Of a DNA stretch of 35,672 nucleotides, positions 14,381 to 19,286 are shown piece after piece (position 1 is the first letter of the stretch; every line of letters starts with the position of its first letter). Below the pieces are notes generated by a model. That model did no database searches. It saw only the letters and a program-made list of their open reading frames with translations, and had not been told where the DNA came from. This DNA comes from Candidatus Obscuribacter phosphatis (GTDB taxonomy: Bacteria; Cyanobacteriota; Vampirovibrionia; Obscuribacterales; Obscuribacteraceae). The stretch covers positions 2,860,400-2,896,071 of the forward strand of contig MOYA01000001.1 of the NCBI GenBank assembly GCA_001899315.1. The letters run 5' to 3'. The position numbers were made by a program, and so were the translations under genes.

Positions 14381-15580
14381 CTAGTCCCAGCTCAAGGCTC
14401 CACCTGTTTGATAATCGATCACTCTGGTCTCAAAGAAGTTTTTCTCCTTCTTGAGATCAATCATCTCGCTCATCCACGGGAAGGGGTTCTTGGCGCCCGG
14501 ATATTGCTCGGGAAGACCAATCTGACGGCAACGACGGTTGGCGACAAAGCGCAGATACTCAGAGAACATCTGGGCATTCAGTCCAAGCACGCCGCGCGGC
14601 ATGGTATCTACGGCATAGGCATATTCCAGTTCGACGCCTTGCTTAATCAAAGTCTGAATCTCTTCTTGGAACTCGGCGGTCCAAAGATGCGGATTCTCGA
14701 TCTTGATTTGGTTGATAACGTCGACACCATAGTTGAGGTGCATCGACTCATCGCGCATGATGTATTGGAATTGCTCGGAGGCTCCGGTCATCTTGTTCTG
14801 ACGTCCGAAACTGAGCATCTGCACGAAGCCAACATAGAAGAAGATGCCTTCCATGATGATGTAATAGCCAATGAGATTACGCAAGAAACGCTGATCTTTC
14901 TCGGGGGTGCCGGTGTGGAAGTTAGGATCGGCTAGTTCTTGGGTGAACTGCAATTGGAAAACATCTTTAGCATGAATGGAGGGAACTTCGCGGTACATGT
15001 TGAAGATCTCGCCTTCATCGATACCGAGACTCTCCACAACATACTGATAGGCATGGGTGTGAAGGGCTTCTTCGAAGGCTTGGCGCAACAGATACTGACG
15101 GCATTCAGGATTGGTGATATTGCGATAGATAGCCAGAACCAAGTTGTTTGCCACCAGTGAATCAGCGGTGGAAAAGAAGCCGAGGTTGCGCTTGATGATC
15201 ATGCGCTCGTCTTCGGTCAGTCCATTGGGGTCTTTCCAAAGAGCGATATCGCGGCTCATGCTGATTTCTTGCGGCATCCAGTGGTTGGCGCAAGCATCCA
15301 GATACTTTTGCCAAGCCCACTCATACTTGAAGGGAACCAATTGGTTGAGGTCGGCGCGGCAATTGATGATGCGCTTCTCGTCAACAGTGACGCGGTGGCC
15401 GCTCATCGAAATTTGCTCAAGCCCGGTGGCACCAGCGCCGGGAACCATGGTCACCGATATTTCTGAGCCCTGAGTCATGGGCGGCGGGGTGAAATCGAGA
15501 CCGGAGGCTGTGGCGGCCGCGGCATTACTGCTCGTGGGCGGTTGCTTGGTGGTCAGGGGAACGTCATCAAAACTGAGCAT
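14381..15580 (-). CDS. nrdB: Class I ribonucleotide reductase, small (radical-generating) subunit
   Basis: Assembles the metal cofactor and radical that starts catalysis in NrdA. The 399-residue protein has a roughly 75-residue low-complexity N-terminal extension. The ferritin-like core contains all six metal ligands by motif: Asp140 (FFSTADS), Glu171 and His174 (FEEALH), Glu244 (MEGIFFY), and Glu278 and His281 (RDESMH). The radical Tyr178 follows four residues after His174. Chlamydia-like class Ic proteins carry Phe there, so this is predicted to be a tyrosyl-radical enzyme although the surrounding sequence resembles that group. AAGGA lies upstream of the ATG. It is 35 bp downstream of nrdA and shares its riboswitch-controlled transcript. 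Confidence 0.96.
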
Positions 15581-15615: not shown

Positions 15616-18447
15616 TTACTGGCAGGCTTCACAATCAGGGTCGGTTATGGAGCAGGCCTTGGGCTGCACCTGAGCCTTCGCGGCTGAGGCTGTCGGAACT
15701 TTGTTGAGCACGCCGATCTGAGTAGTTGATTTCTCAGGGGCTGTGGCTGAGGCGGTGCGCAGGTAATAGGTGGTTTTGAGACCCTTGGTCCAAGCCAGTT
15801 TGTAGGTCTCGTCCAGTTTCTTACCGCTTGGTTCAGCCATATAAAGGTTCAAGCTCTGAGCTTGGTCGATCCATTTCTGGCGTCTGGAAGCAGCTTCCAC
15901 CAACCACTTAGGATCAACTTCGAAAGCTGTAGCGTAGAGAGCTTTCACATCTTCAGGAATACGATCGATGGGCAGCAAGGAGCCGTCGAAATATTTCAGA
16001 TCGTGCACCATCACTTCATCCCAGAGACCAAGACGTTTCAAGTCTTCCACCAGGTAGGTATTGACCACGGTGAACTCGCCAGAGAGATTTGACTTGACAT
16101 AGAGGTTCTGGAAGGTCGGTTCGATAGATTGGCTGACGCCGATGATATTAGATATGGTGGCGGTAGGAGCAATCGCCAAGCAGTTGCTGTTGCGCATACC
16201 ATGGCGAGCGATATGCTCACGCACCGGTGTCCAATCTAGGCGACTGGAGCGGTCTACATCAACACTACCGCGCTCACTGGCCAAGATATCGATTGAGTCT
16301 TGGGGCAGAATGCCTTTGTCCCAGAGTGAACCCTTGTAGCTGTTGTAGGTGCCTCTTTCGGCAGCCAATTCAGAGCTGGCCAAGATGGCGTAGTAGCTCA
16401 CGGCTTCTTGGCAGTAGTCGGCAAAGTCGACTGCTTTATCGGAAGCATAGGGTAGACGCAAGGTGAGCAGAGCATCTTGGAAGCCCATGACGCCTAAGCC
16501 GACCGGACGATGGCGCATGTTGGCGTTGCGAGCTTTGGGCACGCTGTAATAGTTGATATCGATAACGTTGTCGAGCATGCGCATGGCAACGCGACAGGTG
16601 TGAGACAGTTTCTCGAGGTCGAGGGCGCCGTCTTTGATGTGAGCGACCAAGTTGATGCTGCCCAGGTTACACACAGCTGTCTCGCTCTCAGATGTATTGA
16701 GAGTGATCTCGGTGCAAAGGTTGGAACTATGCACAACACCGACATGCTGCTGAGGGCTTCTCAGGTTGCAAGGATCTTTGAAAGTCATCCAGGGATGCCC
16801 GGTTTCGAAGAGCATGGTGAGCATCTTGCGCCAGATAGTGACAGCGGGCACTTTCTTGAAGAGCTTGATGTGCCCTTCTTCAGCCATTTTTTCATAGCGC
16901 TCGTAAGCAGCTTTGAATTTCTTGCCATAGAGATTGTGCAAATCGGGCACTTCGTCTGGGCTAAAGAGAGTCCAATCGGCATTCTCTTTTACTCTTTCCA
17001 TAAAGAGATCTGGAATCCAGTTGGCGGTGTTCATGTCGTGGGTGCGACGACGGTCATCACCGGTGTTTTTGCGCAACTCAAGAAACTCTTCGATGTCCAT
17101 ATGCCAAGTTTCTAGATAGCAGCAGACAGCCCCTTTGCGCTTGCCACCTTGGTTGACGGCGACAGCGGTGTCGTTGACTACTTTCAAGAAAGGCACTACG
17201 CCCTGGCTCTTGCCGTTGGTGCCGGCAATATGCGCGCCAAGAGCACGCACCGGTGTCCAATCGTTACCCAGCCCGCCGCTAAACTTAGATAGCAAAGCGT
17301 TCTCTCTTACTGCCTCATATATAGATGAAAGATCATCATCGACCGTGGTCAAGAAACAAGACGAGAGCTGCGGTCTATGGGTACCGGAATTGAACAGTGT
17401 GGGTGTGGAGGAAACAAAATCAAAACTGGAAAGTAGATTGTAGAACTGGATTGCTTTCACTTCGCGGTCGATTTCATTGAGGGCTAGCCCCATGGAAACA
17501 CGCATCCAGAAAGCCTGCGGCAACTCAAATACAACCCCTTCTTGGTGCAAGAGATAGCGATCGTAAAGAGTTTGCAGACCGAGATATTGGAACTTCAAGT
17601 CGCGGTCGGCGTTTAAGGCGGCTGCTACTTTATCTAAATCAAAAGTAGCCAGACGCGGATCAAGCAAACCGACTTTGATGCCTTTGGCAATATAGTCATG
17701 GAAATAAGTCTTGTAGCGGTCTTTCATTTGCTCTTGGCTGACCGACTCGCCCAAAACTTCTAGGCGCATCTGCTGCAAAAGCAAGCGAGCAGTGGCAAAG
17801 CTATAAGCAGGATCTGTCTCAATCAAAGCCCGAGCGCTCATGATGGCCGAGCGAATTACTTCAGACTCTTTCACGCCTTCATAAAGACTTTCCACCGTTG
17901 AATTGAAAATGCGGCGGGGGTCGACCATATCACCGAGACCGGCACAGGCATCGACAACAATATCTTTCAAACCAAGCTGAGCCAAAGGCACAGTGCTGCC
18001 GTCGGCGCGGGTGACATTGGGACCAAGATTCATCGGCTTGGCTTCAGGCTGCTGAGCGGCACGCTCTTGAGCACGAGCTTCGCGATAAAGAACATAACGA
18101 CGAGCCACTTCTTGCTCACCGGCGCGCATCATGGCCAGCTCAACTTGGTCTTGAATATGCTCGATGTGCAAGACGCCGCCTTCAGGCAGGCGCTTCATCA
18201 GGGTTTCGACAATCTGACCGGTGAGCTTGCTTACCAGCGCACGCACCCGCGAACTCTCGGCGCCATGGGTGCCTTCAACAGCCAAAAAGGCTTTGGTCAT
18301 AGCTACGGCGATTTTAGAAGGATCAAATTCAACGACATTACCGTTGCGTCTGAGCACCTTATATAGTGCAAATTGGCTGATCCGTTCTTCACTCAGTCCA
18401 AAACCAGCGGGGTCGGCATGGTGGACTGCTGTAAGCACCTGGGTCAT
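15616..18447 (-). CDS. nrdA: Class I ribonucleotide reductase, large (catalytic) subunit
   Basis: Reduces ribonucleoside diphosphates to deoxy forms, using a thiyl radical generated through NrdB. The 943-residue protein starts at an ATG with AGGAG. Residues about 28-125 form an ATP-cone ([20 protein letters not shown]), so allosteric activity control is expected. The catalytic set is present: Cys364 (SSCFLTT), the NxCxE motif (Asn576, Cys578, Glu580 in SSNLCTEI) and Cys593 ([10 protein letters not shown]). The C-terminal redox pair for thioredoxin or glutaredoxin is Cys939-Cys942 (DCEACQ). [16 protein letters not shown] segment is also typical. Its expression should fall when cobalamin is abundant, given the upstream riboswitch. 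Confidence 0.97.
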
Positions 18448-18522: not shown

Positions 18523-18562
18523 ACAAAACAAAGCCCTCTCAGTGGATTGAGACCAAGAGGGC
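18523..18562 (-). terminator. Intrinsic terminator of the nrdAB leader (riboswitch expression platform)
   Basis: On the minus strand GCCCTCT pairs with AGAGGGC, with an inner TGG/CCA, and is followed by TTTGTTTTGT. It lies between the cobalamin aptamer and nrdA, about 75 bp before the start codon. Slightly upstream, CCTCTT can pair with AAGAGG or form CCTC-TTC-GAGG, offering alternative structures that could act as antiterminator. A second copy of TTTGTTTTGT lies just before the hairpin (about 18566-18576). Confidence 0.75.
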
Positions 18563-18624
18563 GCAACAAAACAAAGCATGCCTTGTCTATAAGCGCCTCT
18601 TAACCTCGAAGAGGTTTGACTTTA

Positions 18625-18775
18625 TGTGCGCCCAGGTGGGTAGTCTGGCTTTAAGTGCGACTCTTTCGAAACGCTCCTAATTACAGTTGCGGGACAGCGA
18701 TGGATTCACACCATCTTCCCCCACCAGATCTCTCGCTTGTTTTGCCTCGCTTTCAATTCATAGATAGCCAGCGTC
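18625..18775 (-). ncRNA. Cobalamin (AdoCbl) riboswitch upstream of nrdAB
   Basis: Minus-strand RNA shows the conserved aptamer core in order: GGGGGAAGATGGTGTGAATC (starting near 18725), CGCTGTCCCGCAACTGTAAT, then a variable arm, and the B12 box AGCCAGACTACCCACC (18650-18635), which matches most of the consensus. The 5' boundary is approximate because the outer P1/P2 pairing was not resolved by eye. An intrinsic terminator follows before nrdA. Known logic: bound cobalamin turns off the B12-independent reductase when a B12-dependent class II enzyme can work, as reported for Streptomyces nrdABS. Confidence 0.88.
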
Positions 18776-18780
18776 GAATA

Positions 18781-19286
18781 GCCCAGGAGCAAAACCAAGT
18801 TTCAAACTTGCCCGGGGCTTATTAGATTGGATATGAATGAATCGAAAAGCTGGAGACTCGAGTAGATCCCGTAAATTGCAGGGCACTCAGCTAATTAAGC
18901 GAAATTTCTCCTTGATTCGATTCGTCGATGTGTAGCAAGGTAACACTTACAAATTGCAGGCGCAAGGCTACCCCAAAAGCACGGGTAAGAAAGGCTGAAA
19001 CGAGGCTAAGCTTGGGGCTCAGAAGGCTCAACAAGAACCACCTTTGACTTTGATAATATATACACACGAAACCATTCGTGATACCACCGCATAAACACCC
19101 GATAGTACGAAGAACATAAAATTTCCTCTTCCTGCGTCGTTTTAGCACCATCTAACGATATATAGAAACGGCGTTACACCGCACTCATATTGAGGTTAAC
19201 GAAGAATGATCTTTCAGGCTCAAATAGCGGCAAACTGCTATCTTGCTAGGTAGCAGTCTGCTGCAGCGACTAGAAGGAGATAAGAC
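18781..19286. other. Intergenic region between divergent nrdA and the OsmC-like gene
   Basis: About 500 bp without a supported gene; it must hold the promoters of both flanking units. A dyad CACGAA-ACCA-TTCGTG lies at 19065-19080 next to the AT-rich stretch GATAATATATAC, which could supply a -10 on either strand. A short hairpin, ACTGCTA with TAGCAGT, lies at about 19234-19257, just before the OsmC-like gene. No NrdR box pair was seen with confidence. Confidence 0.5.

Follow-up and report, generated by a model that had tools for sequence, protein, structure and literature searches.

A predicted cobalamin riboswitch with a transcription terminator ahead of class I nrdAB in Obscuribacterales

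Does cobalamin decide which ribonucleotide reductase is made in Candidatus Obscuribacter phosphatis? The question is raised by a 35,672 nt stretch of its DNA (assembly GCA_001899315.1, contig MOYA01000001.1, positions 2,860,400 to 2,896,071 of the forward strand; hereafter the window), in which the class I genes nrdA and nrdB lie directly 3′ of a riboswitch on the same strand and are followed by a response-regulator gene (Table 1). Borovok et al. are said to have described such a B12 riboswitch for Streptomyces nrdABS in 2006, in J Bacteriol 188:2512. The two genes score 1672 and 700 bits against PRK07207 and PRK07209 (cut-offs 965 and 309, respectively), and the predicted NrdA retains NLCTE and a C-terminal CEAC. 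Its relatives outside the order (64–69% identity) are mostly betaproteobacterial among the matches listed, hinting at gene transfer. The genome that holds the window (G000; 5.49 Mb, 8 contigs, 95.5% complete) also carries the class II gene nrdJ, whose product requires adenosylcobalamin; its presence had been claimed by the initial annotation, and the search of the genome found it at 704 bits (cut-off 400), complete with NPCGE and a C-terminal Cys cluster.

An Rfam covariance search covers the RF00174 model in full (1–189) at 42.8 bits, above the gathering score of 31.5, with both of the model's variable insert regions nearly missing. The match to the Cobalamin family is full-length, and nothing sets this aptamer apart from it. 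The match lies on the minus strand inside 18523–18775, together with a terminator at 18562–18533, in agreement with the earlier claim of an aptamer and a terminator before nrdA. RF00174 is present in 31 of the 60 genomes searched, G000 included, which itself has two matches, one being the aptamer before nrdA. A chance origin is excluded by recurrence of the aptamer 5′ of orthologous nrdA in 18 genomes, again including G000.

Table 1 Features of the nrdAB locus, in window coordinates.
Feature	Coordinates	Strand	Basis
Promoter-like TTGCGC ... TGTTACCTT (putative)	18937..18965	-	TTGC and TGTTA.CTT blocks align across most of the 17 nrdA leaders
Conserved leader element CTGAGTGCCCTGCAATTTACGGGATC, 26 nt	18865..18890	-	aligned in 17 nrdA leaders
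Cobalamin riboswitch aptamer	18743-18618	-	RF00174 covariance match, 42.8 bits, E 1.1e-7
P13-like switching hairpin, CCTCTT (18614-18609)/AAGAGG (18601-18596)	18596..18614	-	6/6 pairs here; cognate > non-cognate, 15 distinct rows
Antiterminator, AAGAGG (18601-18596)/CCTCTT (18560-18555), apical hairpin between	18555..18601	-	RNAfold
Intrinsic terminator, stem 18562-18533, tail TTTGTTTTGT 18532-18523	18523..18562	-	terminator scan and pairing analysis
nrdA, class I ribonucleotide reductase large subunit with ATP cone	15616..18447	-	PRK07207; PF03477, PF00317, PF02867
nrdB, class I ribonucleotide reductase small subunit	14381..15580	-	PRK07209; PF00268

Within the family to which the window belongs and the sister family, the aptamer precedes nrdA in 18 of the 22 genomes with both nrdA and nrdJ and in none of the nine with nrdA and no NrdJ; as the correlation rests on two losses, a Fisher p for it does not count independent events. 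For these counts nrdA had to exceed its cut-off and NrdJ 600 bits; G034 carries its nrdA in two pieces, G013, whose nrdA is incomplete at the end of a contig, was excluded, and G005, 65% complete, has small class II-like fragments. Both reductases occur with no aptamer before nrdA in G010, G011, G023 and G032, and a search for weak hidden aptamers before the 13 switch-less nrdA genes (E up to 1, both strands, 13/13 loci) returned none. Since the nine NrdJ-less genomes form two separate groups on the NrdA tree, and since the aptamer before nrdA reaches the sister family (G036 and G037, NrdA 58–60% identical), the simplest reading of the sequences would be an ancestral switch with two co-losses together with NrdJ. 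G000 encodes a third reductase, a class II-like protein of 1067 residues (L037:6240-9443, plus strand) with NPCGE, a TSCPD domain and a C-terminal Cys cluster. This protein is also found in nrdJ-lacking genomes without the switch, so that the correlation of the switch is with NrdJ only. Approximately 400 nt upstream of the 1067-residue reductase lies ACACTATATATGGTGT, which resembles an NrdR box.

The region 3′ of the aptamer contains four short arms, CCTCTT, AAGAGG, CCTCTT and GAGAGG (the last at 18540–18535). Three pairings are open to them: first with second (P13), second with third (antiterminator) and third with fourth (terminator), the antiterminator sharing an arm with each of the other two. 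For a transcript that ends with the terminator 5′ arm, RNAfold returns the antiterminator (-26.0 kcal/mol); the terminator-like hairpin has 11 pairs, 6 of them GC. Terminator and alternative pairing are present in the 17 of 18 nrdA leaders examined, and the pairing analysis comprised 17 leaders of the 18 genomes, the G034 leader being left out. With six-base arms picked by eye, so that the test leans towards the proposed model, cognate arms form more of the six pairs than non-cognate ones in P13 (5.80 v 5.43, reached by 9 of 20000 shuffles), the antiterminator (5.56 v 5.20, 100 of 20000) and the terminator (5.38 v 4.82, 1 of 20000); the near-copy G002 was excluded throughout, and G037, which among the 17 leaders has no clear P13, from the P13 comparison. 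The arms of G031 have changed in concert (CCTTCT/AGAAGG/CCTTCT/AGAAGG), G022 retains 3/6 pairs in the chosen terminator register, and a T-rich tail follows the fourth arm in 17/17 leaders, the weakest being that of G007. In isolation, the 223-nt leader folds slightly better than its shuffles (z -1.93).

This arrangement is very probably a transcription-terminating cobalamin riboswitch that represses the B12-independent class I nrdAB. Binding of B12, probably adenosylcobalamin, would hold the P13 hairpin (CCTCTT/AAGAGG) closed, leaving the second CCTCTT, as the terminator 5′ arm, to pair with GAGAGG; transcription would then end before nrdA, and with nrdAB off the cell would depend on the B12-dependent NrdJ. 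When B12 is absent, pairing of AAGAGG with the second CCTCTT would form the antiterminator and block the terminator, and NrdAB would be made. The aptamer, platform, terminator, target genes, nrdJ and their conservation are read from the sequence; the identity of the ligand, the sign of regulation and a loop contact (L5–L13) between aptamer and P13 are what we infer. Other RF00174 matches in the same families precede the B12-independent enzymes metE, nrdD and prpBC, which supports repression.

A real aptamer could instead be selective for methyl- or hydroxocobalamin, or turn nrdAB on, and many cobalamin riboswitches accept several corrinoids, according to an excerpt of one account (PMC9600662). 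The terminator layout and the B12-free isozyme as target, however, fit repression by B12. The adenosylcobalamin requirement of NrdJ also speaks against another ligand, and we regard a different ligand or sign as unlikely. It is hardly credible that the aptamer is a non-functional remnant: while its score is moderate and some relatives have no riboswitch, the whole RF00174 model is matched, the platform is intact, and conservation extends to the sister family.

The leader contains two TTTGTTTTGT tracts (18575–18566 and 18532–18523), from which the initial annotation had suggested two alternative termination points. Both tracts do exist, but the single minus-strand terminator-like hairpin of the platform precedes the second of them, and the first lies in the 3′ half of the antiterminator apical hairpin; because it is base-paired there, we do not read a second terminator at this site. 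In other leaders the hairpin at that place differs in sequence, and the tract itself is confined there, among the 17 leaders, to G000 and the near-identical G002. A working aptamer whose leader terminates at both tracts is thus very improbable, and we retain the model of a single terminator under aptamer control.

Such a switch presupposes a supply of B12, and the organism had been expected to take up or make cobalamin. Corrinoid use is indicated by a corrinoid adenosyltransferase BtuR/CobO (88.8 bits), CobS, a methylmalonyl-CoA mutase C-terminal domain protein and a 1179-residue frame with a B12-binding domain, all in G000, in which a PduO-type adenosyltransferase (PF01923) gave no match. Of the two routes the genome favours uptake, as neither CobN nor CobM/CbiF has a match in the 95.5% complete assembly, and B12 is probably salvaged.

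Cobalamin control of B12-independent reductases is a known type of regulation. In the excerpts of the literature cited here, B12 riboswitch control of Streptomyces nrdABS is established (PMC4991794), with a cobalamin riboswitch before a class Ia reductase and NrdJ in the same genome, as in G000; Streptomyces belongs to a different phylum, and here a response-regulator gene comes after nrdB. Bacillus methanolicus, also of another phylum, has a predicted cobalamin riboswitch before the same target, nrdAB, and another before metE (PMC4342826, in excerpt), and in Chlorobium one precedes nrdD, likewise a B12-independent reductase but a class III enzyme, the cobalamin switches of Chlorobi being described in the excerpt as mainly translational (PMC8620254). 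The earlier view that this control is uncommon outside Streptomyces therefore holds in degree only, given the Bacillus methanolicus and Chlorobium cases in these excerpts and the 18 genomes of one order here. The literature searched yielded no text joining Obscuribacterales with a riboswitch; the known control is conserved here in a lineage for which that literature gives no description. Class I reductase would thereby come under B12 control in a deep, non-photosynthetic and mostly uncultured sister lineage of cyanobacteria as well, an order that NCBI assigns to Candidatus Melainabacteria, and the case offers a natural comparison, with the switch kept in most NrdJ-positive genomes and missing from both NrdJ-less groups. 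The prediction is that these probable B12 salvagers would shift their DNA-precursor synthesis with the B12 supply of the community.

Across the two families there are 44 RF00174 matches, and the downstream gene is known for 43 of them (not for G016:C287): nrdA in 18, a thioesterase in 6, a thioesterase then metE in 2, metE alone in 3, prpBC in 2, an acyl-CoA dehydrogenase with a 3-hydroxyisobutyryl-CoA hydrolase-like gene in 2, nrdD/nrdG in 1, cobN-type genes in 3, cbiM-type genes in 3, cbiE in 1, and unclear in 2. At least one gene of each kind was identified by HMM scan and the rest by tblastn. The riboswitches before prpBC (methylcitrate cycle) and before the dehydrogenase/hydrolase pair are those of L040 and L050, in two genomes. 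The second riboswitch of G000 (G000:C1, near 1000923-1001057) precedes a hotdog (4HBT, YciA-like) thioesterase (L035:9956-10558, minus strand), whose GGAGG ribosome site lies within a CCTCTT-loop-AAGGAGG hairpin resembling that of the nrdA leader, a translational layout. YciA-like thioesterases stand under RF00174 in 8 genomes of the family, G000 included (L035; L041, L042, L054, L063, L064, L068, L073), and in two of them, G034 and G009 (L054, L064), metE follows the thioesterase. In one excerpted paper that mentions both cobalamin riboswitches and 'thioesterase', the latter is an entry in a gene-name list. It is possible, if doubtful, that the cobalamin riboswitch of Obscuribacterales governs a B12-free bypass set made up of MetE, the class I and III reductases, the methylcitrate cycle and a hotdog acyl-CoA thioesterase; whenever the B12-dependent mutase stalled, the thioesterase would drain propionyl- or methylmalonyl-CoA. 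That the thioesterases relieve acyl-CoA build-up is our conjecture. If true, this would add a new type of target, with the thioesterase acting as a metabolic relief valve and not as an isozyme. Its place under a cobalamin riboswitch, twice ahead of metE, is more unusual than the nrdAB case.

Upstream of the aptamer, a sigma-70 consensus scan made no call at the promoter-like site of Table 1. An NrdR box near the nrdA promoter was considered and rejected, the sole match in the window having 3 mismatches and lying inside nrdA (0.6 expected by chance), and an 86-residue frame at 18891–19151 has no Pfam match and was not taken as a gene. Between the putative promoter and the aptamer sits the conserved 26-nt element (CTGAGCATTCAGCAA..CAGGGATC), for which RNAalifold predicts zero pairs across the 17 aligned leaders. 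A strict regular expression found no match in the metE and thioesterase leaders; it also missed several nrdA leaders, and this is weak evidence. The exact pattern has 5 matches in 38 genomes, 4 of them before nrdA, and the copy in Table 1 is its single match in G000. The element also occurs 5′ of the nrdD riboswitch in G033 (L059:2166).
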